In this document: positions 8,481 to 35,149 of the stretch, piece by piece | Position numbering within the stretch: position 1 is the stretch's first letter | Layout of the letters: every line of letters begins with the position of its first letter | Assembly: GCF_001676875.1 (NCBI RefSeq) | Contig: NZ_JYKA01000021.1 | Span: 1 to 64,000 of the forward strand | Length of the DNA: 64,000 nucleotides | DNA from: Chromobacterium subtsugae | GTDB lineage: Bacteria > Pseudomonadota > Gammaproteobacteria > Burkholderiales > Chromobacteriaceae | Reading direction: 5' to 3' | The notes under the pieces: model-generated | Told to the model about the DNA's origin: nothing | The model's database searches: none | The model's input: only the letters and a program-made list of their open reading frames with translations | Program-made: the position numbers and the translations under genes

Positions 8481-9133
8481 TGTTGACCTCGCGAACATGT
8501 AATCAATCCAGGATGCATCGCCTTTCAAACATCGACATGATAGCGCCAAGCAGCCGGCGCCACAGCCCTTATCCTGCTCTCCACTTCTATCGGACAATAG
8601 GGATATACCTTGAGACAGCCATTTCTTCCACTCGCCCCGCCTTGAGAGAGCCGCCGGACAAGAATGGGAAAAAGCAATACAAAATGCTCATTCCAAGACA
8701 TAAAATGCACAACTCAACCAATCACTGAGCCTGCTTTAAAAAAACATTGCAAACAGCACGCCCTAGGCTAGCGCCGCGTCTATCAATATATGCGCTGAGA
8801 TGCGCGTAAAAATCAAGCCGTCAATGCAGAAATCGATAGCGCGCGCGAGCGCCGGGCGGCGCCGAGAACATCGCCGACCCCGCCTGCGCATCCGCACCAC
8901 TCACCGCCCGGCCGCGGCATCCGCCACGCGCCGCAGCGCGCACCCGCGCGGTTTGGACCGGCCGCAGCCCAGCAAGAGAATGACATTCGCACAAAAAAAT
9001 CCCCATATCGGCAAAGCTGAGGCTGTCGCACCACGTCAGCGCCAGGATCGGGACAAAAAGGTGCTTATTTAGCTTTCTTGCTGCCGGAAAATCACGGAAA
9101 ATAAGGCTTTACCCTTCGCGAAAGACGCACACC
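8481..9133. other. Non-coding gap, 653 bp
   Basis: No convincing gene. The 90-residue open frame at 8800-9072 is Arg/Pro-rich, lacks a ribosome binding site and looks like chance coding in GC-rich DNA. The stretch must contain the divergent promoters of the radical SAM gene and the HU gene. An AT-richer patch lies near 8690-8760. I see no clear -35/-10 pair or hairpin. Confidence 0.6.
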
Positions 9134-15012: not shown

Positions 15013-15861
15013 TTACTGCAGCAGCGTCAGCGCGGACTGGGGCAGGGTATTGGCTTGTTTCAGAATCGATGCGCCGGCCTGTTGCAGAATCTGGTTCTTA
15101 GTCAGGTTAGCCGTTTCCGAGGCGAAGTCCACATCCACGATACGGCTGTTGGCTGCGGTCAGGTTTTGTACGTAGTTGTGCAGGTTGGCCACAACAGCGT
15201 CAAACCGGTTCTGCACCGAACCCCAGGTCGAACGCACGGTAGAGATTTCCGCGATGTCGCTGTCCAGCGTCGACAGGATGGCCGACGCGCCGGACTGCGA
15301 GGTGATGTTGATGGTGCCGGTGGCGGTCAGCGACGAGTTGTAGCTGCACAGCACGCCGGCAGACGTCATGTCCACCGAGGAAATCGAAACCTGGTTGCTG
15401 CTGGCGCCGGACGAACCCACCTGGAAGGTCAGAATCGCGCTGCCCGACAACAGCTGGGTGCCGTTGAACTGGGTGGTTTGCACGATACGCGAAATTTCCT
15501 GGGTCAGCTGGTCCACTTCGCTTTGCAGCTGCGAACGGTTAGTGTTGCTGACGGCGCCGTTGGACGCCTGCACCGCGATTTCGCGGATACGCTGCAGGTT
15601 GTTGGCGATCTGTCCCAACGCGCCTTCAGCGGTCTGCCCGACGGAAATACCGTCGTTGGCGTTGTTGATCGCCTGGTTGTTGCCGTTGATGGCGGAAGTC
15701 AGAGTCTGCGAAATGGCCAGACCTGCGGCGTCGTCCTTGGCGCTGTTGATGCGCAGGCCGGAGGACAGACGTTGCAGCGACGTGGTCAGCGACATCTGGG
15801 AATTGTTAAGGTTCAGCTGGGCTTGCAGCGACGCTATATTAGTGTTGACGGTAATGGCCAT
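15013..15861 (-). CDS. fliC: Flagellin 1
   Basis: A 282-residue flagellin, starting at [15 protein letters not shown] after AGGAG. The D0/D1 N-terminal region ([20 protein letters not shown]) and the C-terminal region ([11 protein letters not shown]...[27 protein letters not shown], ending SALTLLQ) are complete. The short centre means no D2/D3 domains. It differs from the tandem flagellin 2 mainly in the centre and carries an unusual cysteine, Cys172 (GVLCSYNSS). A near-consensus sigma-28 promoter precedes it. Confidence 0.97.
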
Positions 15862-15910
15862 GATGACTCTCCTGATACTCAGTGTGGGCAAAGAGGCTTG
15901 CTTACACTGC

Positions 15911-15937
15911 ATATCGGCCGGCACATTCCGAACTTTA
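15911..15937 (-). promoter_or_regulatory. Sigma-28 (FliA) promoter of flagellin 1
   Basis: On the minus strand: TAAAGTTC (15930-15937), an 11-base spacer, then GCCGATAT (15911-15918). This matches the FliA consensus TAAAGTTT-N11-GCCGATAA at 14 of 16 positions with exact spacing, and leaves a leader of about 40 bases before ATG 15861. Confidence 0.85.
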
Positions 15938-16038
15938 CGGTGAAAATGTGAATTTTCACACTTTCATTCCCGCTGCCGTCTGCTCCCGCTTTGTCTTTAT
16001 CGCTGTCCTGTTCGCATTCTCCCTGGCTTCCAGCGCCT

Positions 16039-16064
16039 TCGCCGCCTCCCCGGGGAGGCGGCGA
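16039..16064 (-). terminator. Perfect inverted repeat after flagellin 2
   Basis: TTCGCCGCCTCCCC pairs with its complement GGGGAGGCGGCGAA with no loop bases. It lies just past the flagellin 2 stop at 16082. No T tract follows, so it may be a weak terminator or an mRNA-stabilising hairpin. Confidence 0.55.
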
Positions 16065-16081
16065 AACCTTCATTCAAACCC

Positions 16082-16930
16082 TTATTGCAGCAGGGTCAGC
16101 GCGGCTTGCGGCAGCGAGTTGGCCTGCTTCAGGATGGAGCCGCCGGCCTGCTGCAGAATCTGGTTCTTGGTCAGGTTGGCGGTTTCCGACGCGAAGTCCA
16201 CGTCCATGATGCGGCTGTTGGCGGCAGTCAGGTTGGCGGTGTAGTTCTGCAGGTTGGCCACCACCGCGTCGAAGCGGTTCTGCACCGCGCCGAAAGTGGA
16301 ACGCACGTTGGAGATCTGCGAGATGTCGGCGTCCAGCGAGGACAGCACCGCGGAGGCGCCGCCCTGGGTGGTCACGTCGATGGTCTTCACCGCGCTCAAG
16401 GAGGTGTTGTACGAATGCAGCGTGCCGCCGGAGGTCAGGTCGGTGGCGGATACCGAAACCTGGTTGTCCGACGAGCCGGACGAACCCACCTGGAAAGTCA
16501 GCGTGGCGCCGCCGGACAACAGCTTGGTGCCGTTGAACTCGGTGGTCTGCACGATGCGCGAGATTTCCTGGGTCAGCTGGTCCACTTCGTTCTGCAGCTG
16601 CGAACGGTTGGTGTTGCTGACCGAGCCGTTGGACGCCTGTACCGCGATTTCGCGGATGCGCTGCATATTGTTGGCGATCTGGCCCAGCGCGCCTTCGGCA
16701 GTCTGGCCGACGGAGATGCCGTCGTTGGCGTTCTTCATCGCCTGGTTGTTGCCGCGGATGGCCGAAGTCAGGGTCTGGGAAATGGCCAGACCGGCGGCGT
16801 CATCCTTGGCGCTGTTCACGCGCAGACCGGAAGACAGGCGCTGCAGCGACTGATTCAGCGAGGTGCTGGAGTTGTTCAGGTTGATCTGGGCCTGCAGCGA
16901 GGCCAGGTTGGTATTGACGGTGATTGCCAT
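16082..16930 (-). CDS. Flagellin 2
   Basis: A 282-residue second flagellin, the same length as flagellin 1 and very similar in D0/D1. ATG 16930 follows GGGGAATGAA. It ends QAALTLLQ. The central 150-190 region differs ([26 protein letters not shown]) and has no cysteine. No full sigma-28 promoter is obvious upstream, so it may be expressed differently. It is the last gene before the glycan island. Confidence 0.97.
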
Positions 16931-17108
16931 TTCATTCCCCTTATCGGCCCAGAGGACCATCGAAAGTTCTTGCCTGTTGCAAGAAAGATCGGCCGACTTC
17001 GGAGAATGCTGACGAAAATGGTAATTTTACCAACAAATGCCGCGATTTCGCGGCAAGGCATGAAAAATGGCCCCGAAGGGCCATGGGAAAAAACGCGCCG
17101 CGGCACGC

Positions 17109-20100
17109 CTAGCCGTGCAAGATGCGGAACCAGTCTTCGTAATGGTCTTCCAGCCAGTAATGGCGGTTGAACCAGTCGCGCAGCGCGTCGCCCTCGCGCG
17201 CGGTGGCGTCCATATCGTGGGCGCGGGCGCGGATGGCCTCGATCCAGGCTTCGGCCTGGTTGGGCACCCGGCAGACCGGCGCGTCGTTGGTCTGGTAGGG
17301 ATAAATGTCGGAACACACCACCGGCCAGCCCAGCACCCCATACTCCAGCAGCCGCAGATTGCTCTTGGCCTCGTTGAACGGGTTGATCTCCAGCGGCGCC
17401 ACCGCCAGATCCAGGTTCAGACTGGCCACCTTGGCGGCGTAGTCGGCGAAGGTGACCGCATGATGCACTTCGGCGACGTAAGGACGGAACTGCGGCAGGC
17501 ACATGCCCATGAAGACCCAGTCCACTTCCTTGTGCGTGGCGCGGATCACCTCGTGGATCAACTCCAGGTCGCCACGGTGCTGGCCGGCGCCGACCCAACC
17601 CACGCGCGGCTTGTCGCCGACGCGGCGTTCCGACTTCAGATCGCCCCAGATCGAGCGGCGCAGCCGGTTGGGCACCACCGCCACCTCACCCACCATCTTC
17701 TGGATGAGATCGGCCAGCGGCTGGGTGGACACCACCGCCGCGTCGCACAGCTTCAGCACGCGGCGCAAACGCTGCTTGGCGTCCGGATAGTGGCGCGACC
17801 AGTGGTCATACAGGCTGCTTTTCTCCGGCACGCCGCCGACCAGGTCGTCCAGGCCGAACACGATGCGCAGATCGGGGATATAGCGGCGATAAGCCTCCAT
17901 GGTTTCATAGATGTAGTCGCTGATGCCGGTATGCAGCAACAGCGCGTCCGGTCCCTGGCGCACCAGCTCCACCACGGTGGGAATGCCGGCAGAGGGCTGG
18001 TGGATTTCGCCGTCCAGCTTGCCTTTCTCCTGCAGCACCTGCAAAGGCTGGCTCAAGCGGTATTCGCCGCTGCCGCCCGGCACCGGGATGCCCAGCACCT
18101 TTTTGCGCCCAGGCAGCTTGGCGTCCCAGGCGACGATGCGGTCGGACTCGATCGCCACTCGCTTGGTGCGCAGCGACAAGTGCCGGTTGAAGCCCGGATC
18201 GTTGCCCATCACCGGCAGCCAGCGCGCCAGCATCGCCTCCATCTCCTCGCGCTCGCGCACCGCCGCCTTCAGCGCGGGGCGGGGATCGGTGGTGACCCGG
18301 CCTATGCTCTTGGCGTGGTGGTGGTACAGCACCGCGTAAGGAGTGTAGACGTTGCGCAGGCCGCCGGCCTGGATCTTGAGGCAGAAGTCGACGTCGTTGA
18401 AGCAGACCTGGAACACCTCTTCGTCCATGCCGCCCACCGCTTCGTAGATCTGCTTCTCCACCATCAGGCACGCCGCGGTCACCGCGGAATAGTTCTGCAT
18501 GGTCAGGCTGCGATTCAGATAGCCCGGGTACAGGTAGTCCATATCCTCGAATACGTGGTCCGCCACCGAATACATGCCGCCGGGCATGCCCAGCACGATG
18601 CCCGCATGCTGCACGCGGCCGATCTCCGGATAGAGCAGGCGCGCGCCCACCGCGCCGACGCCCGGCTGCTGGGCGGTAGCCAGCATGCGCTCCAGCCAGT
18701 GCGGGAACACCACTTCGGTGTCGTTGTTCAGCAGCAGCAGATATTCGCCGCGCGCCTCGCGCGCGCCGAGGTTGCATTGCGCGGAGAAGTTGAACGGCGC
18801 GTCGTAGCTGAGGATGCGGATCCGCCCCGGATAGCGCGCCTGGACCTTTTCGTAGAACTCGAAGGTTTCCGGATCCTGCGAGGCGTTGTCGACGATCAGC
18901 ACTTCGAAATTCTGGTAGCCGGTGATGCCGAACAGGCTGCTCAGGCAAGGCTCCAGGCATTCGAGCTTGTCCTTGCTCGGGATGATCACCGACACCAGCG
19001 GCGAGGCCAGCAGCTGGTATTCGTAGTAGAAGGTTCCCGCCACCAGGCCCTCGTCCACCGACGCCGGCAGGCCGCAGCGGCCGATATGGCTTTCCAGCGC
19101 CACCCGGCGCGAGGCATTGCCCAGGCTGTCCATCTTGGGATCCACCCACGGCAGCGACACCAGCACATCGTCGACATGGCCGATGGCGCCGCGGTCCCAA
19201 TTTTCGTATATCCGCAGCAGCGCGTCGTAGCAATGCGCGCGCGGATACGGCTGCATGCCGCCGATCTTGGCCAGGGTCTCGCGCTGGAACGCCACCGCGT
19301 AGCTGGTGTAATCCATCGACCGCAGGTACTCCGGCGAGAAATCCGGCAGGAAGGACGGGCGGAAGCGCTTGCCCATCGGCGACACCACGTCATGGTCGGT
19401 ATAGATCGCGCCGTATTCCGGATGCGCGTGGATCTCCTCGCCCAGCCGCGCCAGCGCGTTCGGCTGCAGGCGCGCGCCGGCCGGCAGCAGCATCACCCAG
19501 TCTGCCGGCACGTCGGCGATGATGCTGTTGATCACCTCGGAAACCTGTTGCTCGTCGTCCATGCTCGCCAGTTGCACCCAGCCCAGGTTCGGGCTGCTGC
19601 TGAACACCGGGTCCGGCTCCGGCGCGTCGGACACCACGATCAGCCGCCAATGGCGGTACAGCAGGTTTTCCATCGCGGTGAAGCTTTCCGACAAGCGCGT
19701 CAGGCGGTTGCTCGGCGCCAGCAGAATCAGGTTGAACACCGGCACCTGCTTCCAGGCCATCATCATCCGCTCCGCCAGCTGTTCGGCGTGCACTTCGCGG
19801 ATCTGGCGGCGTTTCACCCACTTGCGGTAGGCCTTCAGGCCATCCACGTCGTTTTCGGCCAATGCGTGCGTGACGATGCGGCCCGGCTGCGCCAGCGGCT
19901 GCGGCTTGAGCGCTTCGGGCAGCAGCGCCGCGTACTGGGCCAGCAAATCGCCCACCCGCGGCTCCAGCAGCCGGTTCTCCAGCACATGGCGGCGCGCGGC
20001 GGCGGCTTGCTCGGCGCGCAGCGCGGCATCGTCGATCAGCTTGCTGATCCCGGCCACCCAGCCTTCTTCGGTATTGTCCGCCACCATCGCCAGCCCGCTG

Positions 20101-20987
20101 TCCTTCAAACCGGCGTAGGCGGTGACATCGGACACCACCGCGGCCGCGCCGACCAGCGCGTACTCCAGCCACTTGATGTCCGATTTGTAATCATTGAATT
20201 CGCTCTGCACCAGCGGCGCGATGCCGATGTCGATCTTGAGCTTGGCCAGTTCGGACAGGTATTCGTTGTAGGTGACGAATTCCGGCACCTTGCGCACATC
20301 CTTGATGCCGACGAAATCGGGAGGCACATCTCCCCAAAACACGAACTTCACCTGGCCGGCATACTCGTGGTAGATCCGCAGCAGCGCCGACGAAATCATT
20401 TCAACGTCTTTGGCGTGAGTGCTGGTGCCGGCGAAGCCGATGGTGACCTGGCCGCTATGCGGCAGCGGCTCCACCACCCGTTCGGTCGCCAGATGGTTAT
20501 GGAACACGAAGACCTTGTCGTTGTAAGGCTTGACCTTCTCAACCAGCGCTTCGGTCGACACCGTCACCAGCGAGCACTGCGGCAGCAGCCACTCGATCCC
20601 CTTGAACGACGGCTCGCAGATGCTGTACATCACATGCTGCTCGGACATGTCCAGCAGCCAGTCATCCACTTCGTAGACGATGGGCTTGCCCGACGCGACG
20701 ATCATTTCCAGCAAGGGCCGGAACTCCGGATAGGGAAACAGGCGCTGGACGATGAACATGTCCATCGCGTCGACGAAATCGCGGTCCTCCTTGAACGGGT
20801 ACACGCCCTCGTAGCTGTGATCGGCCTGGTTCTTGAAATGGTAGGCTTCCAGCACCGGCGACATCAGGCAGAGCGGATCGCCAAGTCTCAGTTTGTAGCA
20901 GGCGGCATCCTGCAGATCTCGCGTCAGAACGCCGACGCGCGGTTTACGGATTTGGGATGGTTCCACGTTATTTTCCTGAGATTCCAT
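17109..20987 (-). CDS. Giant multidomain glycosyltransferase (GT4-GT2-GT2-GT4-like)
   Basis: A 1292-residue protein starting at MESQENN (ATG 20987). Residues ~12-370 resemble a GT4-type fold (YEVDDWLLDM, then VTIGFAGTSTHAKDVEMI and IGIAPL). A GT2-like segment follows near 410-560, then a complete GT2 near 660-900 with VSVIIPSKDK, VDNASQDPET and LLLLNNDTEV. A C-terminal GT4-like part starts near 950 (ALLLHTGISDY, VGWVGAGQHRGDLELI, LLEYGVLGWPVVCSD). Such multi-transferases build surface or flagellar glycans. It lies immediately upstream of flagellin 2 and shares its C-terminal two thirds with the protein at 23224-26784. Confidence 0.85.
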   Translation of the reverse strand: MESQENNVEPSQIRKPRVGVLTRDLQDAACYKLRLGDPLCLMSPVLEAYHFKNQADHSYEGVYPFKEDRDFVDAMDMFIVQRLFPYPEFRPLLEMIVASGKPIVYEVDDWLLDMSEQHVMYSICEPSFKGIEWLLPQCSLVTVSTEALVEKVKPYNDKVFVFHNHLATERVVEPLPHSGQVTIGFAGTSTHAKDVEMISSALLRIYHEYAGQVKFVFWGDVPPDFVGIKDVRKVPEFVTYNEYLSELAKLKIDIGIAPLVQSEFNDYKSDIKWLEYALVGAAAVVSDVTAYAGLKDSGLAMVADNTEEGWVAGISKLIDDAALRAEQAAAARRHVLENRLLEPRVGDLLAQYAALLPEALKPQPLAQPGRIVTHALAENDVDGLKAYRKWVKRRQIREVHAEQLAERMMMAWKQVPVFNLILLAPSNRLTRLSESFTAMENLLYRHWRLIVVSDAPEPDPVFSSSPNLGWVQLASMDDEQQVSEVINSIIADVPADWVMLLPAGARLQPNALARLGEEIHAHPEYGAIYTDHDVVSPMGKRFRPSFLPDFSPEYLRSMDYTSYAVAFQRETLAKIGGMQPYPRAHCYDALLRIYENWDRGAIGHVDDVLVSLPWVDPKMDSLGNASRRVALESHIGRCGLPASVDEGLVAGTFYYEYQLLASPLVSVIIPSKDKLECLEPCLSSLFGITGYQNFEVLIVDNASQDPETFEFYEKVQARYPGRIRILSYDAPFNFSAQCNLGAREARGEYLLLLNNDTEVVFPHWLERMLATAQQPGVGAVGARLLYPEIGRVQHAGIVLGMPGGMYSVADHVFEDMDYLYPGYLNRSLTMQNYSAVTAACLMVEKQIYEAVGGMDEEVFQVCFNDVDFCLKIQAGGLRNVYTPYAVLYHHHAKSIGRVTTDPRPALKAAVREREEMEAMLARWLPVMGNDPGFNRHLSLRTKRVAIESDRIVAWDAKLPGRKKVLGIPVPGGSGEYRLSQPLQVLQEKGKLDGEIHQPSAGIPTVVELVRQGPDALLLHTGISDYIYETMEAYRRYIPDLRIVFGLDDLVGGVPEKSSLYDHWSRHYPDAKQRLRRVLKLCDAAVVSTQPLADLIQKMVGEVAVVPNRLRRSIWGDLKSERRVGDKPRVGWVGAGQHRGDLELIHEVIRATHKEVDWVFMGMCLPQFRPYVAEVHHAVTFADYAAKVASLNLDLAVAPLEINPFNEAKSNLRLLEYGVLGWPVVCSDIYPYQTNDAPVCRVPNQAEAWIEAIRARAHDMDATAREGDALRDWFNRHYWLEDHYEDWFRILHG

Positions 20988-21080
20988 GGCGGCAGCTCGC
21001 CAGGTCATGAATTGAATCGGGTCCGCAGCCGGACACCCCGGACGGCAATACAGCAAGAACGCACTCGAAGCGAACGAAAG

Positions 21081-21100
21081 AAAAGGGCCTGCCGGCCCTT
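21081..21100 (-). terminator. Terminator between the second B12/radical SAM gene and the large glycosyltransferase
   Basis: On the minus strand AAGGGCC-GGCA-GGCCCTT is followed by TTCTTTCG. It lies in the 263-bp gap between the radical SAM stop (21251) and the transferase start (20987), so the transferase probably has its own promoter. Confidence 0.6.
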
Positions 21101-21250
21101 GAGCGAAAACCGCGCCGCGGCGAAGCCCCGCGCTCCCATCGGAGCGGAGCCGCCGCGGCCGTCAGGCCGATCAGCGCCACTATAGCAGCCCGCGCCGTGG
21201 CGACGCCATGCCGGGCAATGCCGCCCATCGGTCCGCGTCGCCGTTCCGCC

Positions 21251-23005
21251 TCAAGCCTGGGCGGCCAGCGCGATCGGCGCGTCGCCTTCCGGCGCGGCGC
21301 GCGGCAGCAGGATTTCGGCCAGCAAGCCGTAGTTCTCCTCCGACCAGTCGTCGGGATTGACGCCATCCAGGCCGAAGATCCAGGCCCAGCGTCCCCAGAA
21401 CGAGCTCTGCACCGACTGCAGGTAGCAATCGCGGTGGTGTTGGGCCAGGTCAAGCCGGCCCAGCCCGCGGTAACACTCCGCCAGGTAATAGTGGGCGAAG
21501 GCGTGGTCGCTCTTCAGGCGAAGAACGTTCTTGAGCCCCCGTTCCGCCCATTCGTAATTGCCGCAGCGCAGATCGTAGTTATGGACGAAATTCAGATCCA
21601 GGTTCATGAAGTACTGGTATTCCTGGATGAACTCGGCCGAGAAGTCCTCGGTATTGATGACCGCGGTGCGGTAGTCCGACCCCAGGCTATTGATCTTGAT
21701 ATAGCCCTTCTCTTTCGAGATTTCGTGGATCTCGCTGCCGACGATGGGGCTGGCGCAAGCGATGTTGAACCAGTTGGAGGCGATCTCGCGCAGATTGCGG
21801 CGCGCTTCTTCCAGATCTTCCTTGGTCTCGCCCGGCATGCCGATCAAAATATTGGTATTGGTGTAGATGCCCAGCTCGCGGCAATCCCTGGCCACCCTCT
21901 CCGAGATCTTCATCTTCAGCGGCTTCTTCATCTGCTTCTTCAGCACCTTCTCGCTGCCGCTTTCCACCGGCAGCACCAGGTGCCGCACGCCGGCGTCCCA
22001 GAAGGCCTGCAGCATCGGACGGTCCAGCGCGTAAAGCGTCAGGCCGTTCTGATACACCGACTGCAGGTTCAGCGACTTCACGATGTCCAGTATCTTGTAC
22101 ACCCGGTCGGAATCGGCCATCAGGTGGTCGTCCTGGAAGATGACGGTTTCGGCGCCGTAATGCTTGACCAGCCGGGTAAAGTCCTCCTTGACCCGCTCCA
22201 GCGAGTGATAGCGCATCGACCTGCCGTGGGTGCGGTGCGAGGCGCAGAAGGTGCACAGGAAGGGACAGCCGCGCGATGTCATCACATGGAAGCCGCGCGT
22301 CTTGTCCAGATTGTGGTAGGAGGCCACCACCTGGTTGATTTCATGCTTGTCGATGTCGCACAAGTCATAATCGAAGAACGGGATTTCATCCAGGTCGTCG
22401 ATGAAGTCGTGCTTGGGAACCAGCAGCGCCTCATCCATCACATTGCTGCGCGTGATCCATGCCGACGAGCTGGCCAGGAAGGCCAGCGGATCTTCCGCCT
22501 GCAACAGGTTCAGCATCGGCTTTTCGCCTTCGCCGAAGCACAGGCCGTCGAAGAAGGTGCAACCCATGTCGCGGTAGATCTGCTCGTAGCTGTTGGTGGG
22601 GATATTGCCGCCGCCGACCACGATGCTGTCCGGCCATACCTCGCGCGCCATCCGGCCGCAATCCATGAAGTTGGCGAACGAGGGGCTGAACAGCGAGGAG
22701 ACGCCGACGAAGTCCGGCGCGAAATCCTCGATCTGCCGGAAGAAATGGCGGCACAGCGCTTCGAACGAATCGAAGGGCACCGCGTCCAGCGCGTTGACCT
22801 CGGCGTTGAAGTCGATCAGCTTCACATCCAGCGGCAGGAACTTCTTCAAGTACGCCGAGATGGACAAGGGCCCCAGGGGCAAATCCGTGCGCGGGATGTT
22901 GTAGACCTTCCCATCGGCCTTGGCCAGCTGCACATTGTAGAACTCGGGCTTGGTGAACGAGTCCCAGGAAATGTGCATGGGCACGACAAACAACAGTTTT
23001 TTCAT
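21251..23005 (-). CDS. B12-binding radical SAM protein within the glycan island
   Basis: Predicted 584-residue enzyme, paralogue of the protein at 6816-8480. ATG 23005 has GGAGGGTGGG just upstream. The cobalamin-type N-terminal domain ends in CFGEGEKPML; the radical SAM motif CPFLCTFC lies in TSRGCPFLCTFCASHRTHGRSMRYHSLERV. The two share extended motifs (ILIGMPGET, IACASPIVGSEI) and the C-terminal helical tail (CGNYEWAERGLKNVLRLKSDHAFAHY). It lies between two giant glycosyltransferases, so its substrate may be the glycan or the flagellin. Reaction unknown. Confidence 0.85.
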   Translation of the reverse strand: MKKLLFVVPMHISWDSFTKPEFYNVQLAKADGKVYNIPRTDLPLGPLSISAYLKKFLPLDVKLIDFNAEVNALDAVPFDSFEALCRHFFRQIEDFAPDFVGVSSLFSPSFANFMDCGRMAREVWPDSIVVGGGNIPTNSYEQIYRDMGCTFFDGLCFGEGEKPMLNLLQAEDPLAFLASSSAWITRSNVMDEALLVPKHDFIDDLDEIPFFDYDLCDIDKHEINQVVASYHNLDKTRGFHVMTSRGCPFLCTFCASHRTHGRSMRYHSLERVKEDFTRLVKHYGAETVIFQDDHLMADSDRVYKILDIVKSLNLQSVYQNGLTLYALDRPMLQAFWDAGVRHLVLPVESGSEKVLKKQMKKPLKMKISERVARDCRELGIYTNTNILIGMPGETKEDLEEARRNLREIASNWFNIACASPIVGSEIHEISKEKGYIKINSLGSDYRTAVINTEDFSAEFIQEYQYFMNLDLNFVHNYDLRCGNYEWAERGLKNVLRLKSDHAFAHYYLAECYRGLGRLDLAQHHRDCYLQSVQSSFWGRWAWIFGLDGVNPDDWSEENYGLLAEILLPRAAPEGDAPIALAAQA

Positions 23006-23223
23006 CCCACCCTCCTCGATCAACGTCCTGCCGCGCCGCGGGCGCGTCCCGCCAGGCAGGCGTTCATCCTCATCCCTTAAGATTACAAGAAAAAAACCGG
23101 CGCCCATCCCCAACGCGCGGCCGGCATACCCCGCTGTCGGCGCGGCGGGCCGCATCGACGTCAAACCTGCTTCATCCTGCAAAGCGGCAGGCGCCGCGCG
23201 CGGCGACCACCCCTTACTCTGCT

Positions 23224-26200
23224 TTATCGGCCAAGCGCCTCCAGCCATGAGGGCAAATGCGGGCCGAGCATGCAATTTTCCTTGACCCAGGCCTTCAACC
23301 GCTCGCCTTCGCGGCCGGCCCGCTCCAGATCGCGCGCGCGTTCGAGCAAGACCTGGCTCCACGCCGCGGCCTCGTTGTCCGCCCGCGCCACCGGCGCTTG
23401 CGCCAGTCCCGGCCAGTCATCCAGCGCGCTGCACGCCACCGGGATGCCCAAAGCGCCGTATTCGAGCAGCCGTCGCCGCCCCGCCGCCTCGCGGCGGCCA
23501 TCGGCGTGCTTGGGCATCACCGCCAAGTCTATTCCCAGGCTGGCCAGCTTGCGCGGGTAATCCTCGCTTGCCAGGTCGAAGGGATGGTATTCCGCCAGGT
23601 AGGGATGCAGCGCATCCGGACAGTGGCCGAATACGATCCAGTCGATCTCGCCGCCGGTGGCGAGGATGATCCCAGTGAGCAGCATCAGGTCCTCCACCTC
23701 GGCCTCCGTGCCGCTCCAAGCCACGCGCGGCTTCTTGCCCATGCCGCGCAGCGAAATCAACCCTTCCCAGCGCGCCTCGTCCAGCGCCTCCGGCACCAGG
23801 CGCACATCCTCGCAGAACGCGCCGGCCAGCGCCCGCAGCGCTTCGGTCGGCACGATGATCCTGTCCGCCTCCCGCGCCAGCGCCCGCAACATCGTTCTGG
23901 CGTAACGGTCGCTGACAGCGCCGCCGGCGTCCAGATCGTCCAACACCAGGATGGACAGCATGTCCGGCCGGCTGCGGCGGCTCAGACGCAGCCAATCGAG
24001 GAAGCCAGGCTCGAAGCGCGCGGCTTGCACCAGGACATCGGGCGCCAGGCGTTCGAGCTCGCCGGCGCTGGGCAGGCGCTGCCCGGCCGGAAGCATGGTG
24101 GCCAGCAGCTTGCCGTCATCCATCAAGCGCAGCAGCGGCGCCCGCAAGCGGGCGGCGCCGGCCGGCGACGTGCCCGGCAGCATCAGCACGCGGGCGCGCT
24201 CGTAGAAATCGGGGTCCCACTCGGCGGAGTAGACGTTCTCCACCTGGAAAGCCTGCCGGCTGTCCAGACTCAAGTGCCGGTTGTACGCCGCGTCATGCCG
24301 CAGCCAGCCATACCAGCGCCGGGACAACGCCTCCTCGTCCAGCCTCGCCGCGAGAGGGGCCGCATCGGGCTGCCGCAGCGCGGACACGAACGGCGTCCAG
24401 ACCAGCAGCTTGTCGGCGGCGCGGATCTTCAGGCATAGATCGACGGCGGCGCTGTCGGCATCCTCCAGCGAGGCGTCGAGCCCGCCGATTTCCTCATACA
24501 GCGCGCTGGACATCAGCAGGCAGTCCAGCGGCACGGCTCCCGGATTGTGCTCGATCAGCTGGCGGCCCAGATCGCCGGGCGCCGCCGCGTCGGCGCCGTC
24601 GAACACCGATGCGGCGCCGGCGTCCGCGCCCAGCAGCAGCGGACCGCGCCAGACCGTTTTGCCGTCGGCTCGCAGCAGGCGCGGCGCCGCGGCGCCGACG
24701 CCTTGGCGCGAGGCCAGGCCAAGCAGGTCCGGCAACCAGTCGCTCCGGCCCACTTCCACCCGGCTGTCGAGGAACAGCAGGTAATCGCCGCTCGCCGCCT
24801 CGGCGCCCAATTGATAGCGTCCGGCCAGCGACAACTCGGAGGCGCACGCCACCCGCCGCGCCGCGGCAGGCAGCTCGGCCGCCGCCGGCGTCACCGCCAG
24901 AATCTCGCAAACCTGCTCCCAGTCCGCCGCCAACACGGCGTCGATGCTGGACGACAGGCTGACGCCGTCGCCGGCGTCGGCGATGATGACGGAAACCTTG
25001 CACTGGCCGGCCGCCAGATAGCGGATATGGAAGCTGCCGACTGCCGCCCCCGGCTGGATGACGGCCGCGCCGCCCTGCCGCTCCAGGTGCGCGGCCAATG
25101 CCCGCTCGCGCGCGGCGGCGGCGTCGGCCGGCTCGGCCGCCGCCGCTGGCAAATGCACCAGCATGTCGGCGATATGGCCGATGACCCGGCCGCCGTAGGC
25201 GTCATGCAGCCGCCACAAGGCGTCGCAGCCATCGGCCGCCGGCGCTTCGGCGAAAGCCCCGGTCTCCTGCAGCGCCTCGCGGCGGAACCAGACGCTTGGG
25301 CTGATGTAGTCGGCACCGCGCTGCAGGTCGAGATTGAAGTCCGGCTTGAACACCGGCCGGCAGCGCTTGCCGTCCGCGCCCAACTCGTCGCAGTCGCTGT
25401 AGATGGCTTGCCATTCCGGATGCAGCGAGGCGTGATCGCCCAGCGACAGCAGCGCGTTGACCGCCAATTCGGCGCCTGCCGGCAGCACCGTGATCCAGTC
25501 GCACGGCAACGCCCCTATCACCGCGGCGAAAGCCTGGGTCAGCTGGCTGGGATCGCGGGCGTCGTCTATGCGCAGCCAACCCAGCACGTCGGAGCCCTGG
25601 AAAGCCGCGTGCGGCCAGTCGAAGTCGGCGATGAAGATCAGTTGCCAATGCTTGTACAGCTGCTGCCCCATCGAGCCGATGGACTTCAACGCCTCCTGCT
25701 GGCGATCGGCGGTCAGCGGCATCAGAACGATGAAGCGGGGCTGGCTGCCCCAGCTGCGCACCATTCTTTCGGCGTGGATTTCGGCCTGCCACGGCCGCAA
25801 CTCATTGCGCGCGATCCAGGCGTCGTAGCGGGCCTGCTCCGGGCTGGCCTGCGCGGGCTTCAGCGAAGGGAAGACAATCTCGTTCGGACCGCCCTGCGGC
25901 ATCTTTTGCGACGCGGCGATGAAGCCCTCGAGCTGCTGCAGCAGCTCGAGCTGGTATTGGTGATAAACCTGCTGATAGTCCACCACCTTGCCATGGGCGG
26001 CGGCGATCGCCTGCGGCGTGTCCTCGAAGGTCACGCCCGGCAGCGCCAGCCCCAGCGCCAGCCCCGCCCGCTCTTCCGGTTTTTTGGAAAACACCGTTTC
26101 CATCACCACCACCGGGCAGCCGCACAGCAGCGCCTCGGAGATGATCGCCGAATTGGCGAAGGTGTACAGCACCTTGCCCTGCCTCAACAGCGCGGCCAGC

Positions 26201-26784
26201 TCCTCATGGCTTTGCGGCCACTCGTAGGTGATGACGTCGGTGTTCTGGAACAACGCCGGGAAATCCCGCTCCGCGTGCTTGTAGCGTCCCGGGTAAACCA
26301 GCACCCGGTGGCGGCTGTCGTCGTGCGGGTTGTCGTCGTTGTTGAAGATGGCGGTGTCGATCGATGGGATGAAAATGAAGGACGGGTCGGGATACTTGGC
26401 GTAATCGACATAATCCTGGTGCCAGAACACCAGCAGGTCCGACGGATCGTAATCCTTGGGGCCGCCCAACAGGCCGGGGTGGTTGAGAATGTAGCGCGCC
26501 ACCGCCTTGCCGTTGAGCGGATTGCCATGCACCACTTCAGGGTAGACGACGATGGGGGAACGCCCGCTGGCTTTATGGCGATCGACGATGTCCTGGGTCA
26601 GATACGGCGTTCTGAGCTTGGGATCGGTTTCGGGGGAGAAGACATAGGCCTCCTCCCCCAGCTTGTTCAGGTAATGGCACAGCAGGTGCATGGCGCGCAC
26701 GCCATTGGAGACCCGGGTATAGCCTGGCGCGCATATGTAGTAGGGCTGGTGACGCTCATTGTAGAATTTTTTTTCGATCTGCAT
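23224..26784 (-). CDS. Giant glycosyltransferase paralogue with degenerate GT2 core
   Basis: A 1186-residue protein beginning MQIEKKFYNERHQPYYICAPG. Residues ~1-310 look like a GT4-type domain (VRAMHLLCHYLNKLGEEAYVFSP, SEALLCGCPVVVMET). From ~330 on it parallels the 1292-residue transferase segment by segment (AEIHAERMVRSWGSQP, YNRHLSLDSRQ, LLEYGALGIPVACS). In the main GT2 block, VSVIIPSKDK is replaced by VSVIIADAGDG and NNDTEV by LDSRVEV, so that domain probably lost metal/nucleotide binding. It likely contributes acceptor binding or a single transfer step. Ala-rich inserts are common. Confidence 0.8.
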   Translation of the reverse strand: MQIEKKFYNERHQPYYICAPGYTRVSNGVRAMHLLCHYLNKLGEEAYVFSPETDPKLRTPYLTQDIVDRHKASGRSPIVVYPEVVHGNPLNGKAVARYILNHPGLLGGPKDYDPSDLLVFWHQDYVDYAKYPDPSFIFIPSIDTAIFNNDDNPHDDSRHRVLVYPGRYKHAERDFPALFQNTDVITYEWPQSHEELAALLRQGKVLYTFANSAIISEALLCGCPVVVMETVFSKKPEERAGLALGLALPGVTFEDTPQAIAAAHGKVVDYQQVYHQYQLELLQQLEGFIAASQKMPQGGPNEIVFPSLKPAQASPEQARYDAWIARNELRPWQAEIHAERMVRSWGSQPRFIVLMPLTADRQQEALKSIGSMGQQLYKHWQLIFIADFDWPHAAFQGSDVLGWLRIDDARDPSQLTQAFAAVIGALPCDWITVLPAGAELAVNALLSLGDHASLHPEWQAIYSDCDELGADGKRCRPVFKPDFNLDLQRGADYISPSVWFRREALQETGAFAEAPAADGCDALWRLHDAYGGRVIGHIADMLVHLPAAAAEPADAAAARERALAAHLERQGGAAVIQPGAAVGSFHIRYLAAGQCKVSVIIADAGDGVSLSSSIDAVLAADWEQVCEILAVTPAAAELPAAARRVACASELSLAGRYQLGAEAASGDYLLFLDSRVEVGRSDWLPDLLGLASRQGVGAAAPRLLRADGKTVWRGPLLLGADAGAASVFDGADAAAPGDLGRQLIEHNPGAVPLDCLLMSSALYEEIGGLDASLEDADSAAVDLCLKIRAADKLLVWTPFVSALRQPDAAPLAARLDEEALSRRWYGWLRHDAAYNRHLSLDSRQAFQVENVYSAEWDPDFYERARVLMLPGTSPAGAARLRAPLLRLMDDGKLLATMLPAGQRLPSAGELERLAPDVLVQAARFEPGFLDWLRLSRRSRPDMLSILVLDDLDAGGAVSDRYARTMLRALAREADRIIVPTEALRALAGAFCEDVRLVPEALDEARWEGLISLRGMGKKPRVAWSGTEAEVEDLMLLTGIILATGGEIDWIVFGHCPDALHPYLAEYHPFDLASEDYPRKLASLGIDLAVMPKHADGRREAAGRRRLLEYGALGIPVACSALDDWPGLAQAPVARADNEAAAWSQVLLERARDLERAGREGERLKAWVKENCMLGPHLPSWLEALGR

Positions 26785-26897: not shown

Positions 26898-27965
26898 TCA
26901 GGCTCCGGCAAACGCATCGACGGAAAACCGTATCGCGTCGCCCAGCGGCGTCCAGGGCGCGAGGCCCAGCTCCGCGCGGGCGCGGCCGATATCCGGCAGG
27001 TACAGGTTGCGCGCCGGATTGCCGACGCTGGCGTCGGATTGCCCCAGAATACGGACTTCGGCGGCGGGACACACCCGGTCCCTGACCTCGCGCGCCAATT
27101 CGGCGATCGTGATCGCGGCATCCGATCCCACATTGAAGACCCTGGCCCCCCCCTCGCGCTGCAACAGCGCCAGCATCCAGACCACCAGATCTCCCATGTA
27201 CAGATAGGAGCGCGACGGACTGCCGTCCCCCGTTATGATGATAGGATGACCGCGCATCGCACACTGGATGAAATTGCCTATCGCGTAATGGATGTCCAGC
27301 GGCATGAAGGGGCCGACGAAGGCGAAGCAGCGCGCGACGCTCAAATGCCAGCCATGCTGCTGCGCATAGGCGGCGCAAAGAAACTCGGCCGCGCGCTTGG
27401 CCTGGCCCAGCGCGGTGATCGGGTCCATCGTGTCCGGCGCGAACGGGTCGTCCTCGCGCAGCGGCCGGCCGGCGAGCGACGGCCCGTAGGCCGCGCCGGA
27501 GCTGGTGAACAGAAAATGCTCGGGCTGGGCCTCGGCGGCAAAGTCGAGCACGCGGCGGGTGCCGCTGACCAGCGTGTCGAATTTGTTCAGCGAAGTCTCG
27601 CCGCGGAAGGTTTCATGCGCCGAGGTGGTGGCGGCATGAATGAAGTGGCTGAAACGCTCCCTGGGAAAGGAGAAGTCGCGCACGTCGCCGACATGGAAAC
27701 GGATGGCCGGATTCGCCGCCAGATGCGGCGCCTGCCGGGTGAAGGCCTCCGGATTGCGGCTGAGCGCCAGCACCCGGATGCCGGCGTCCAGCCTGGCGTT
27801 GGCATGGGCGATGGACTCCAGGATCCAGCGGCCGAACCAGCCGGTCCCGCCGCTGATGAACAGCGACGCGCCGCGCAGGCTGTCCCAGAGCTCGGGTTTG
27901 CGGCCCAGAATGGCGTCGAGATCCTGCTCCAACGTGCGCGGCGGCATGAGGCGGTGCAAAGCCAT
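26898..27965 (-). CDS. NAD(P)-dependent sugar epimerase/dehydratase-like SDR lacking catalytic Tyr
   Basis: A 355-residue extended SDR. It has the Rossmann motif FISGGTGWFG near residue 30, the usual TSSGAAYG strand, and the C-terminal substrate region (SRSYLYMGDLVVWML, VFNVGSD). At the YxxxK site the sequence is LGQAK (Leu186, Lys190): Lys is kept but the catalytic Tyr is Leu. It may therefore bind a nucleotide sugar with altered chemistry. In the cluster it could act on the keto-sugar made by RfbG/RfbH and the TPP enzyme. The start is one of two close ATGs (27965 or 27947). Confidence 0.8.
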   Translation of the reverse strand: MALHRLMPPRTLEQDLDAILGRKPELWDSLRGASLFISGGTGWFGRWILESIAHANARLDAGIRVLALSRNPEAFTRQAPHLAANPAIRFHVGDVRDFSFPRERFSHFIHAATTSAHETFRGETSLNKFDTLVSGTRRVLDFAAEAQPEHFLFTSSGAAYGPSLAGRPLREDDPFAPDTMDPITALGQAKRAAEFLCAAYAQQHGWHLSVARCFAFVGPFMPLDIHYAIGNFIQCAMRGHPIIITGDGSPSRSYLYMGDLVVWMLALLQREGGARVFNVGSDAAITIAELAREVRDRVCPAAEVRILGQSDASVGNPARNLYLPDIGRARAELGLAPWTPLGDAIRFSVDAFAGA

Positions 27966-27976
27966 GCGCCTGGCGA

Positions 27977-28783
27977 CTAACCCAGCACGACCAGCGCGCT
28001 GGCCCAGTATTCCGCCGCCTGGTCGTTGTGGACGCGGCGGTTGAAGGTCAGGTCGTAGCCATAGGCTTCGAAGTGATAGCCGACGCCGTCGCGCTCCGCC
28101 TCCAGGCCAGACAGCCACAATAGCGGCGGATAGCCTGCCTTGCGCAGCAGCAGGTCCGGCGAGCCGATGAAGGCGGCGCAGCTATCGTAGCCGCCTGCCA
28201 GCAGGAATGGCGCGGGCAGCGTTTCCAGCTGCTCGATCGCGGCCGGCACCGAATATTCCAGCAGGCAGGGGAAATAGAAACCGACCACCGGGCCTTGGCG
28301 CATCGCCTCTATCAGGCGGTCATGGCGCGCCCCTTCCGCCGGCGTCAACAGGCCGGAGAGGCTGGGCTTGTGATGGTTGACGAAGCTGTACTGCGGCAGC
28401 TCGGCGTCGTACACGCTTTTCACCGCCGGCAGGTAACGCTCGTCCAGCGCCTGGCCGATATCGTCGTGCGCCGCCTGCGGCAGGAAGAACGGCACATGCG
28501 CGCCGTTCAGCAGCCGGCGGCCGTCGGCGTCGCTCTCCAGCTTGGCCAAGATCGCGCGGGCGCGCTGCTCGAAAGCCGCGGCGTCCAGGCCTTCCGCCGC
28601 GCCCAGATGGCGGCTGATGCGCTGGTGGATGGCCGCGTAGTCTATCCGCGGCTGGTGCGGCAGGAAATAGCGCCGGGTCTGGCGGTGGCAGGCGGCCTGG
28701 GTGGCCGTATGCGGCAGGCAGCGGCCGTTGTCGTCGAAGCGCGGCGCGCTCTCGACGGCCGGGGTCATGACTGGTGCGTTCAT
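27977..28783 (-). CDS. Unrecognised 268-aa protein of the glycan island
   Basis: I do not recognise this family. The protein is soluble, with no signal peptide, membrane span or cofactor motif. Possible functional pieces are YFLPHQPRIDYAAIHQRI near residue 40, HVPFFLPQ near 96, the FVNHHKP motif near 134, and FYFPCLLEYSVPAAIEQLE near 170. The N-terminus MNAPVMTPAVE resembles the start of the adjacent radical SAM protein (MNAPLDTTN). It lies between that gene and the SDR with short gaps, so it probably acts in the same sugar pathway. Confidence 0.7.
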   Translation of the reverse strand: MNAPVMTPAVESAPRFDDNGRCLPHTATQAACHRQTRRYFLPHQPRIDYAAIHQRISRHLGAAEGLDAAAFEQRARAILAKLESDADGRRLLNGAHVPFFLPQAAHDDIGQALDERYLPAVKSVYDAELPQYSFVNHHKPSLSGLLTPAEGARHDRLIEAMRQGPVVGFYFPCLLEYSVPAAIEQLETLPAPFLLAGGYDSCAAFIGSPDLLLRKAGYPPLLWLSGLEAERDGVGYHFEAYGYDLTFNRRVHNDQAAEYWASALVVLG

Positions 28784-28824
28784 TCGGAAAAGCCTTTACC
28801 GTGATTCTGTAGGTCGTGCCGTCA

Positions 28825-29937
28825 TCAATCGTACAGGGAGTCCTGGTCGGAGAAACCCTGCCCCCACGGCAGCGGCAGGAACTTGGCGCCCGCGGTCTTT
28901 TCCGTGTGGATCTTGATGAACTTGGGATCTTCGCCGATCAGGCAATCGGGCCGGTGCGGCCCCAGCCACGGGTTGCGCATGCCGCGCGCCAGCACTTCCT
29001 TCAGCGATGTCTCGCGCAGGTTGCCGATGGAGAAATCGATGTATGGGCACGGCGTCACTTCCATCGTCGAAGTGACGGTGATGATGCCCTTGACCGTGAT
29101 GCAGCCCTTGTGCGAACCATAAGACGGCGTCATGTGCGAGAAGACGTTGTACTCCTTCTCCAGCTGCCGCAGGATGTCGGCGTCCTCTTTCTCGATGACG
29201 AATTCCGGGTGCTCGGTGCACGAGCCGGTCGGCTTGGCGTAGGACACGTAGAGGCCGATGCCGCGCTGGGTGACGTATTCGCACATCCGGCGGAATTCTT
29301 CGGTCTTGGCGCGGCCCTTGACCAGCACGGTCGACAGGATCAGGTTCAGCCCGGCGTCCAGACAGGCGTCGACGGCGCGCATCACCCGCTTGTACGAGCC
29401 GGGCTTGTTGCGGAAGTTGTCGTGGTCCTTCTCGACGAAGCTGTCCAGCGAGATCTGCACTTTCTCGACGCCGATCGCCTTCAGATGCTTGGCGCGCTCC
29501 AGATCTAGGAACCAGCCGTTGCTGTCGGTGATGATGTAATGCTTTTCCGGATCGAGGGCTTCGATCACCTGATCGAAATCCTTCATCACCAGCGGCTCGC
29601 CGCCGGTGATCACGAAACGGGCCAGCCCCAGTTCGTCGGCCTGGCGCGACAGATTGCGAATGTCGTCGTAATCCATCTTGCTGCGGGTATCCACCACCTT
29701 GATCACATTCTTCAGGTGGCGGTCCATATAGTATTCAGCCGAGCAGTGCGTGCACTTGAAATTGCACAGATAGCTCTTTTCCAGGCGGATGATCGGGCTG
29801 ATCTCGCCGCGTTCTTCCATTTCGGCGATGCGCGCCAACTTGGCCGCGACATAAGGCTTGCGCCGGGCGAGGTCGTTTCGTTTCGCCTGCTCTGCCTGGC
29901 TCAGCGCCAGGTTGGTGGTGTCCAGAGGAGCGTTCAT
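28825..29937 (-). CDS. Radical SAM protein with SPASM-like C-terminus
   Basis: A 370-residue radical SAM enzyme. ATG 29937 is chosen because AGGAG lies just upstream. The SAM/4Fe-4S motif is CNFKCTHC (CxxxCxxC) near residue 59, followed by FVITGGEPLVMKDF. The C-terminal region holds more cysteines (HKGCITVKG, VTPCPYIDF, PDCLIGEDP) that could bind an auxiliary cluster, as in SPASM/Twitch proteins. These families include peptide and sugar-modifying enzymes. Context points to sugar or flagellin modification; the reaction is unknown. Confidence 0.85.
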   Translation of the reverse strand: MNAPLDTTNLALSQAEQAKRNDLARRKPYVAAKLARIAEMEERGEISPIIRLEKSYLCNFKCTHCSAEYYMDRHLKNVIKVVDTRSKMDYDDIRNLSRQADELGLARFVITGGEPLVMKDFDQVIEALDPEKHYIITDSNGWFLDLERAKHLKAIGVEKVQISLDSFVEKDHDNFRNKPGSYKRVMRAVDACLDAGLNLILSTVLVKGRAKTEEFRRMCEYVTQRGIGLYVSYAKPTGSCTEHPEFVIEKEDADILRQLEKEYNVFSHMTPSYGSHKGCITVKGIITVTSTMEVTPCPYIDFSIGNLRETSLKEVLARGMRNPWLGPHRPDCLIGEDPKFIKIHTEKTAGAKFLPLPWGQGFSDQDSLYD

Positions 29938-30065
29938 ATGGTGTCTCCTAACCATCGCGGCGGCGCAGCGGCCGCGAGCCTTTCGCGATGGCAGTCAGCT
30001 GTTTCGAGTGTATCAGAGAGGCTATGCAGAATGGCGCTTCTGCCTATTTATCTGTTTGCGCATTT

Positions 30066-30659
30066 CTACTGATGGTCTTCGGCATTTTCGGCCAAAACTT
30101 GAATCGGCGGGCTTTGCCGCATGGCGGGGTCGTCGTCGATATAGCCGCGGTAGACCTGCTGCACCGGCAGCAGGTCGTCCGGACAACGCGCGTGCCACGC
30201 CCAATCGCCGGCGCGCGGCGCCGCCGGGTCGAAGCGGCGCGCGGAGTCGGGCGGCGTGGTCAGCCGGCAGGCGTGCAGCAGCGAGATGAAATGGCCGCGG
30301 ACGTCGCGCTTGGGAATCAGCATCTCGTGCCGGCACAAGGGATGCGGGTCGAAGCTGACCTCGGCGCCCAGCTCGTGCGCGGCGACGGCGGCGATGCGGT
30401 CGGCCGAGCTTTCCTTGAAGCGGATGATGCCGCCCGGGATATGCCAGCCGGGGCCGCAGAAGCGGTCGTCGCGCCAGGTCAGCAGCGTCCGCCCCTGTTC
30501 GTCGCGGATCAGCAGGTCGACATTGATCATCGGCGTCAGGCTGCTGACGAATAGGAAAATCTCCTCAGGCAGCCCTTCGCGCGCCGAGCCGACCGCCTGC
30601 CGCAGCGTGTCTATCGCGTCGAGTATCGCCTGTTGCCGGTCTGCCGGGTGTTTATGCAT
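30066..30659 (-). CDS. Nudix hydrolase, GDP-mannose hydrolase-like
   Basis: A 197-residue Nudix-fold protein (ATG 30659, overlapping the methyltransferase end by 8 bp). The box is partial: PGGIIRFKE keeps G-x5-E, but the REUXEE part reads AVAAHELG with a single Glu. This altered box and the region FLFVSSLTPMINVDLLIRDEQGRTLLTWR resemble GDP-mannose mannosyl hydrolases, which release sugar from NDP-sugars. It may act as a housekeeping or shunt step for the cluster's nucleotide sugar. Confidence 0.82.
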   Translation of the reverse strand: MHKHPADRQQAILDAIDTLRQAVGSAREGLPEEIFLFVSSLTPMINVDLLIRDEQGRTLLTWRDDRFCGPGWHIPGGIIRFKESSADRIAAVAAHELGAEVSFDPHPLCRHEMLIPKRDVRGHFISLLHACRLTTPPDSARRFDPAAPRAGDWAWHARCPDDLLPVQQVYRGYIDDDPAMRQSPPIQVLAENAEDHQ

Positions 30660-31812
30660 CGCCAGCCTCCGGGTCAACGGTTTGCAGGCGGTTGTCGGCC
30701 AGGAAGGCGACGGCGAAGCGCGCGCCGTGGCGGGCCTGGATCTGGCGCACCACCTCGGCGGAATAGCTGGCCGCCAGCACGATCACCGCGTCCACCTCTC
30801 CGTCCTGCAGCCGCTCCGGCGCGACGATGGGCAGATGGGTGGCCGGCGTGTAGCGGCCCTGCTTGAACGGCGCCGAATCCAGCACATAGCGGATGCGGCC
30901 GGCGACGCCCATCAGGCTGATCAAGGCCAGCGCCTGGTGGCCCGCGCCCCAGATCGCCACCCGGCCCGGCGCGAAGCGGCCCAGGAATTCGTCGAACGAC
31001 GCGCGCAGCGCCGTCTCGCAGGCGACCAGCGCCGACAGCCGCTGCGGCGCGCGTTTGCGGACCGTGGCCGACAACACGTAGTCGTGCCAGGCGGCTCGGC
31101 AGTCCAGCACTTCGAAGCCGTTGGCCTCCAGCAGGCCGGTCAGCGTGCGCTCGGTGAAGTAGAACAGGTGGTCCGGGATGAATTCGGCGAACAAGCCCTT
31201 TTCGACGATCATGTCGAAATTCGGCACTTCCACCATGCCGACGGCGCCGTCGGCCAGATTGGCGGCGATGCCCTGCAGCGTCAGGTGCGCGGCCGGGATG
31301 TGTTCGAGGAAGTTCAGGATCATGAAGCCGTCGAATGGACCGTCCGCCAGCCTCGTTTCCGGACTGTCCACGAAGCCCCGCTCCACCCGCAGGCCGGCCT
31401 GGCCGCAGGCTTCCACCGAGGCCGGCAGATGCTCGACGCCATAAGCGTCCGCGCCGGCCTCGGCCAGCAGCGACAGGTATTCGCCGCGGCCGCAGCCCAC
31501 CTCCAGCACCTTGCGCCCGGCCAGGCCGTGCCCGGCCAGCCAAGCGCCGAACTGCGCCAGCCGGAAGGCGCGCATTTCCGGCGAGATGCCGGCGGCGCGG
31601 ATCACGTCGCGCCAGTACGGCACCGGCTCGGCGTCCAGTTGCAGCAGCCCGCAGCCGCCGCACTGGCGCAGTGCCAGCTCGACGCCGCGGTCGTCGGCCA
31701 GCCGCTCAGCCGCCGGCAGGCCCTGGGCGGCGGCCGGCATGTCGCGCTGCACCAGCAGCGGCTCATCGAACAGCCGCTGCGCGCAGATGCGGCAATGCGT
31801 GATGGCAGCCAT
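30652..31812 (-). CDS. SAM-dependent sugar C-methyltransferase-like protein
   Basis: A 386-residue methyltransferase with three parts, as in sugar C-methyltransferases: an N-terminal zinc-binding region (CRICAQ and CGGCG), a class I SAM domain near residue 95 (KVLEVGCGRGEYLSLLAEAGADAYGVE, FLEHIP), and a C-terminal Rossmann-like domain (VAIWGAGHQALALISLMG, YVLDSAPFKQGRYTP). Relatives of this architecture C-methylate keto-deoxy-NDP-sugars, which fits the RfbF/G/H products expected here. It lies directly downstream of the TPP enzyme (3-bp gap). Confidence 0.87.
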   Translation of the reverse strand: MAAITHCRICAQRLFDEPLLVQRDMPAAAQGLPAAERLADDRGVELALRQCGGCGLLQLDAEPVPYWRDVIRAAGISPEMRAFRLAQFGAWLAGHGLAGRKVLEVGCGRGEYLSLLAEAGADAYGVEHLPASVEACGQAGLRVERGFVDSPETRLADGPFDGFMILNFLEHIPAAHLTLQGIAANLADGAVGMVEVPNFDMIVEKGLFAEFIPDHLFYFTERTLTGLLEANGFEVLDCRAAWHDYVLSATVRKRAPQRLSALVACETALRASFDEFLGRFAPGRVAIWGAGHQALALISLMGVAGRIRYVLDSAPFKQGRYTPATHLPIVAPERLQDGEVDAVIVLAASYSAEVVRQIQARHGARFAVAFLADNRLQTVDPEAGDA

Positions 31813-31815
31813 CGC

Positions 31816-33645: not shown

Positions 33646-33647
33646 GC

Positions 33648-35135: not shown

Positions 35136-35149
35136 GATGGGCCTCTCTT

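Follow-up and report, generated by a model that had tools for sequence, protein, structure and literature searches.

Within a 64,000-nucleotide stretch of the Chromobacterium subtsugae contig NZ_JYKA01000021.1 (the window, whose own numbering is used throughout), two genes on the minus strand encode giant glycosyltransferase (GT)-like proteins that are paralogous over most of their length, P1 (17109–20987, 1292 residues) and P2 (23224–26784, 1186 residues). We found that the part of P2 shared with P1 has been stripped of its catalytic motifs, that the N-terminal domain peculiar to P2 (P2N, of predicted GT-B fold) is its best-kept portion, and that P2 occurs in exactly those genomes of the genus that also carry a gene of the adjoining sugar island. 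We see about an even chance that P2 is a transferase specific to this island, with P2N as its only possible active site and the dead core kept as a scaffold.

Results

Both frames lie where an earlier reading of the DNA letters by themselves (the sequence-only reading) had placed them. From its N terminus, P1 consists of GTB-N (residues 1–385; 19833–20987), GT2A (401–655; 19023–19787), GT2B (659–935; 18183–19013) and GTB-C (951–1292; 17112–18137), and P2 of P2N (1–305; 25870–26784), GT2A (335–586; 25027–25782), GT2B (about 593–806; 24367–25008) and GTB-C (855–1183; 23236–24222), the domain limits being taken from profile matches, save those of the P2 GT2B, which are the approximate limits of its predicted GT-A fold. 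Residues 347–1290 of P1 and 280–1184 of P2 reach a BLOSUM62 score of 1180 in local alignment, the highest of 50 shuffled scores being 72, and the homology spans the entire GT2A-GT2B-GTB core; the segment-by-segment alignment announced by the sequence-only reading is thus borne out, and covers roughly the last three quarters of the proteins. The N-terminal parts of P1 and P2 are unrelated by sequence (score 38; shuffles with a mean of 36 and a maximum of 57). Within P1, GTB-N and GTB-C are homologous to each other (score 200; shuffle maximum 56). P1 scores 75 bits against Pfam PF00535 (curated cut-off, 23.3 bits), through its intact GT2B only, and P2 scores 18.5 bits, below the cut-off. Pfam left GT2A unscored, and we call this domain GT2-like on the strength of a match that runs across GT2A and GT2B between the P1 core and a classical tandem GT2 protein of genome G333 (locus L115, a 751-residue frame; 298 bits, 35% identity). 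The order of the two domains is the same in that protein; both of its centres are intact (LDHDD and MNNDVEV), whereas GT2A lacks a DXD in every core protein that we aligned.

GT2 enzymes carry the motifs DN, DXD, ND (the base) and HH, each with a recognised role. Across the 51 aligned core proteins, none, P1 included, has a DXD in GT2A (LLPAGARL in P1, VLPAGAEL in P2), and 39 retain NND in GT2B. In the latter domain, VSVIIPSKDK and the DXD-like motif NNDTEV of P1 (residues 754–759; 18711–18728) do share columns with VSVIIADAGDG and LDSRVEV of P2, as had been noticed from the letters, with DSRVEV (673–678; 24751–24768) in the position of NNDTEV. All eight P2 orthologues have DSR[VI]E there (that of G009 through its C-terminal half) and none an intact NND. 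The 12 proteins with an altered GT2B comprise seven P2, G002_P1L, and those of G057 (HND, with the other motifs lost), G128, G220 and G333; every one of them carries P2N, partial in G057, whose protein starts at a contig end. GTB-C of P1 retains K1208 and LLEYG. The lysine of the AKSN motif in this domain is lost in seven of seven P2, replaced by Arg in G002_P1L and retained in 42 of the 50 proteins that extend this far (G023 is cut short). When conserved columns were defined on the 38 intact proteins, with the five decayed non-P2 proteins and G023 excluded, 31 of 67 in GT2B were altered in all seven full-length P2, polar ones (24 of 34) far more often than non-polar ones (7 of 33; p = 7e-5), and in GT2A 3 of 30 were so altered. 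Thus, the tandem GT domains of P2 have no DxD, the motifs of both GT2B and GTB-C are stripped in every P2 orthologue found, and sequence gives good support to the view that the shared part of P2 has ceased to be catalytic. The sequence-only reading had a single GT2 centre decayed. That the motifs of the P2 GT2B are gone holds; that this is the sole loss is ruled out by the absence of the GT2A DXD from P1, P2 and all the other aligned proteins, and GTB-C of P2 is stripped as well.

The fold of the P2 core appears to have been kept. In a model of only moderate quality (predicted local distance difference test score, pLDDT, 67; predicted TM-score, pTM, 0.47; eight sequences), for which the core was folded separately from P2N, GT2B has a predicted GT-A fold that matches 6p61_B with Z 20.1 and 2.3 Å over 177 residues. 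Selective constraint on the two proteins was compared as mean pN over mean pS (nonsynonymous and synonymous differences) in the 21 pairs of seven genomes, with NG86 counts from our own script; synonymous sites are partly saturated. The ratios for P1 were 0.27 (GTB-N), 0.30 (GT2A), 0.17 (GT2B) and 0.15 (GTB-C), and those for P2 were 0.23 (P2N), 0.40 (GT2A), 0.49 (GT2B) and 0.51 (GTB-C). P2N is within the range of the P1 domains and the P2 core is above it; the core of P2 is therefore relaxed yet constrained, and the hold on P2N is as tight as that on live domains.

P2N itself gave an AlphaFold2 model of good quality (pLDDT 88.4, pTM 0.86) with a GT-B fold, that is, two Rossmann-like lobes matching solved GT-B enzymes. 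Its best matches are 8xsh and 8xsg, the latter with uridine diphosphate, at Z about 17 (for 8xsh, Z 17.2 and a root-mean-square deviation of 3.7 Å, with 272 residues aligned). By sequence, the best match in the PDB was only the C-lobe of a GT4 enzyme at E 0.16, no PHROGs or NCBIfam model matched any of 47 P2N members at E 0.001, and 22 members searched against Pfam gave no convincing match (four families, one member each, best E 0.046). In outline, then, P2 does have the alternative nucleotide site that the sequence-only reading had named as evidence that would tell against its proposal; the site is a predicted GT-B domain, with the qualification that this domain lacks an acid kept by all its other aligned relatives. 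Of the 52 P2N columns conserved in class (class at least 85% conserved among 86 distinct non-P2 rows), 48 hold their class in every P2. The changes are at 119 (aromatic to Val/Leu) and 210 in all eight P2, at 228 in six and at 89 in one. Residue 210, which precedes a helix with CGC, is Asp or Glu in 85 of 85 non-P2 rows and in all 11 additional bacterial rows (96 of 96, many of them closely similar; one more row lacks the region, and L223, the twelfth bacterial locus, yielded no aligned row) and Ala in eight of eight P2 (codon 26155–26157, minus strand, in the window). An acidic residue at about this position in GT4-type enzymes serves to bind the donor sugar or to drive catalysis. In terms of the EX7E motif of that family, many P2N relatives show E/D-x6-E, of which P2 retains only the second Glu.

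A P1-type core was found in all 19 genomes of the genus, that of the window included, and a P2 orthologue in eight, where it always shares a locus with a P1 bearing an intact NND. The P2 frame is open over 1180–1189 codons in seven of these, with conserved gene order, and is cut by contig ends in the eighth (G009); the best-segment identities of P2 to its nearest named relatives are 77% (C. piscinae), 67% (C. vaccinii) and 48% (C. amazonense). A gene of the sugar island encoding a protein of unknown function (27977–28783) is likewise present in 8 of 19 genomes, the identical set, a coincidence with 1 chance in 75,582 were the genomes independent, which they are not. Co-occurrence with the island gene suggests a sugar-specific role for P2 more than the general length control that the sequence-only reading had considered.

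P2N also occurs in other settings. As the N-terminal part of a fusion, it precedes a complete P1-type protein (about 1600 residues) in four genomes of the genus (G002, G007, G014 and G016) and in six from two other genera within the family, and in G220, G333 and G128, from other families, it precedes a core with no match to GTB-N. Matches to P2N alone were obtained in 7 genomes among 369 from the class and, with a profile, in 12 among 398 from the phylum, the genome of the window being counted in both. Some relatives have about 985–1015 N-terminal residues of another kind ahead of GTB-N; in the P1-type proteins of L046, L047 and L048 (2265–2271 residues) the extra 985 or so match no P1 or P2 module. 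A scan of viral contigs in IMG/VR gave at least 113 P2N relatives, 80 of which were retained. As 64 of the 80 are in frames of 231–281 residues (a few cut by contig ends) and 16 in longer, partly multidomain frames, a P2N-type domain can be a whole protein. In four of these viral contigs (L190, L192, L204 and L208, of the set L131–L210) a GTB-N-like frame lies directly behind the P2N relative. A tblastn search of named phages with P2N found nothing, and a Foldseek search of BFVD returned assorted GT-B-like matches with TM-scores of about 0.3–0.56.

All P2 cores fall into a single, long-stemmed clade of the core tree (100/100), and the P2N domains of P2 form one clade (100/100) in the P2N tree, with the reservation that long branches, together with the deviating composition of the P2 sequences, leave exact placements unsure. 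The core tree places G002_P1L within the P1 group (100/100), and the P2N tree puts it with G026, though weakly (79/99). Since it stands apart from P2 in both, its core decay looks independent of that of P2. It is also less advanced: 44 of 67 conserved GT2B positions and 71 of 96 in GTB-C are kept, the P2N acid is retained, and a P1-type gene with intact NND adjoins. Separately, the P1 proteins of G003 (L058) and G010 (L052) are 96–100% identical by domain, their P2 are widely separated in the tree, and the radical S-adenosylmethionine (SAM) gene found elsewhere between P1 and P2 is missing from G003; recombination may have reshuffled this locus.

Genomic setting

On the minus strand the genes follow the order sugar island, P2, a B12-binding radical SAM gene, P1, two flagellin genes (15013–16960, adjoining P1), flaG, fliD and fliS, the flagellin and fla/fli names having been assigned by reading the sequences. 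A flagellin neighbour is seen for P1 in the window and for the P1-type gene in 17 of 18 stretches from the genus, the exception being the 19.9-kb stretch of G014, which gave no flagellin match. The radical SAM protein between P1 and P2 (21251–23080, minus strand; its start codon is uncertain, the frame being open to 23362) has a counterpart of at least 86% identity in seven of the eight P2 genomes (the exception being G003) and in none of the 11 others; the G012 match contains one TGA. A second B12/radical SAM-like protein, 41% identical to it, is encoded on the opposite flank of the flagellar cluster (6816–8597, minus strand) and was also matched in five of the other seven P2 genomes. The island linked to P2 (26898–35153, minus strand) encodes an NAD epimerase/dehydratase, the above protein of unknown function, a radical SAM protein, a NUDIX protein, a C-methyltransferase, a thiamine pyrophosphate (TPP) enzyme and a NeuB-SAF-cupin protein; a further frame at its edge (35150–36463) would extend it to 26898–36463. 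Long open frames antisense to these genes, at 17067–21185 (1372 codons) and 30256–33660 (1134 codons) on the plus strand, probably arise as a side effect of the high G+C content of the coding DNA.

Discussion

We propose that P2 would transfer a sugar made by the linked island, P2N being the single candidate site. With its TPP enzyme, C-methyltransferase and NeuB with cupin, the island would make an unusual sugar, perhaps a branched or methylated one destined for flagellin, which would be the substrate. P2N would still transfer sugar despite the change of Asp/Glu210 to Ala, and might have been retuned for a donor without the hydroxyl that residue 210 would bind. The P2 core, a P1-type copy with motifs gone and predicted fold kept, would serve as a scaffold, most simply one that sets P2N in place relative to flagellin, to the growing glycan or to P1, and P1 would supply the other steps through GTB-N, GT2B and GTB-C. 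What leads us to favour a single-site transferase over a non-catalytic partner is the manner of loss, since GT2B has lost polar residues as a set and P2N one acid, always to the same residue, with almost everything else in P2N held. The pattern in P2N looks like retuning, or else like a site retained solely to bind; the data fit the single-site transferase and the non-catalytic partner alike.

Several observations weigh against our proposal. With its acid replaced by Ala, P2N may itself be dead, a GT-B fold is by itself no proof of activity, and the donor, acceptor and activity of P2 are all putative. Nine other fusion proteins, three of this genus and six others, combine P2N with an intact GT2B. 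In GTB-C, 26 of 96 conserved columns are altered in all seven P2 with no polar bias (p = 0.49). Finally, G128, G220 and G333 each have P2N with a decayed GT2B and no second match along the whole core, so that a division of labour with an intact paralogue is no general rule. We had considered that a P2N-bearing protein loses GT2B only alongside an intact paralogue, and this likewise does not hold in general: no second core-bearing protein was matched in G220 or G057, other frames of G128 gave weak partial matches (one, of 1621 residues, to GT2B and GTB-C at 25–32%) and none along the whole core, and the second protein of G333, the classical tandem type, covers GT2A-GT2B only.

A possible, if rather doubtful, alternative is that P2 is wholly non-catalytic, every GT module lacking a key residue, and that it acts as a partner of P1 in acceptor presentation, stabilisation or polymerisation, a role comparable to that of CHPF beside CHSY or of GtfB beside GtfA. 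A GT2A with no DXD, stripped GT2B and GTB-C, a P2N without the otherwise invariant acid and the constant company of a P1 with intact NND all accord with such a role. In the adhesin O-GlcNAc transferases GtfA-GtfB, a non-catalytic GT-B paralogue aids substrate binding; that pair differs from P1 and P2 in belonging to different families, in having no tandem GT2 core and in that P2N is possibly active. Foldseek placed the CHSY3-CHPF1 heterodimer among the matches to the P2 core, at rank 14 among tandem GT-A polymerases and with low TM-scores. CHPF lacks the DxD present in CHSY, and chondroitin sulfate is no longer made once a cell is deprived of CHPF and CHPF2, according to excerpts of PMC12748766, and the likeness to P2 is that a tandem-GT paralogue without DxD and donor residues is kept beside an active one. 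P2 differs in its additional N-terminal and C-terminal GT-B domains, its setting in a bacterial flagellin locus and its possibly active P2N, and any complex of P1 with P2 is putative. A partner role fits less well with the strong constraint on P2N, in which, unlike the core, only two conserved columns are altered in all P2, and with the 11 of 19 genomes that have P1-type proteins and no P2; moreover, a general partner would have no need of the link to the island gene. In its boldest form, which we consider distinctly doubtful, P2 would be a protein of four non-catalytic GT modules that binds the nucleotide sugar of the island or a glycan acceptor and governs glycan building by P1, making it a bacterial, flagellin-specific counterpart of CHPF in a family where decay has begun more than once. 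Of the acceptor-binding or length-control factor put forward by the sequence-only reading, the loss of catalysis in the shared part stands as well supported on sequence grounds; the factor role is neither shown nor excluded, because P2N lacks the acidic residue kept by every other aligned relative.

It is unlikely that GT2B or GTB-C of P2 remains active through non-canonical residues, the decay being only apparent. The invariance of DSR[VI]E in P2, retention of the equivalent of P1 E758 and the predicted GT-A fold would fit such activity; against it, DN, DXD, ND (the base) and HH are lost together in GT2B, with polar positions foremost, and pN/pS in GT2B and GTB-C is about three times that of P1. 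That P2 is a pseudogene on its way out, as the faster evolution of its core than that of P1 might suggest, is highly improbable and was rejected in view of the open frames, the constraint (pN/pS below 0.52 in every P2 domain) and the conserved gene order.

Among known flagellin glycosylation loci, that of Pseudomonas syringae has Fgt1 and Fgt2 encoded upstream of fliC, with Fgt1 transferring rhamnose to serine (PMC3927599). Like P1 and P2 these are glycosyltransferase genes beside a flagellin gene, a comparison of location only, and the excerpted description does not include a decayed copy. In EryCIII-EryCII a transferase likewise works with a partner that is not itself a transferase, but this partner is, in the excerpts of PMC3391682, a P450 homologue and not a GT paralogue. 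Excerpts of papers on flagellin islands of Aeromonas (PMC7874193) and enterobacteria (PMC4875605) mention no such protein, and the titles and abstract openings listed for Chromobacterium flagellin glycosylation contain nothing on P1 or P2.

P2N draws attention to a GT-B family that has members in many IMG/VR contigs and no name in Pfam, NCBIfam or PHROGs, the three libraries searched. To our knowledge, dead glycosyltransferase paralogues are known mainly from animal glycan polymerases and adhesin glycosylation. Here, one bacterial operon holds a live giant and a largely dead one that has been kept in eight genomes, beside a separate and milder decay in G002 and eleven genomes without P2, and together these make the role of dead GT modules testable.

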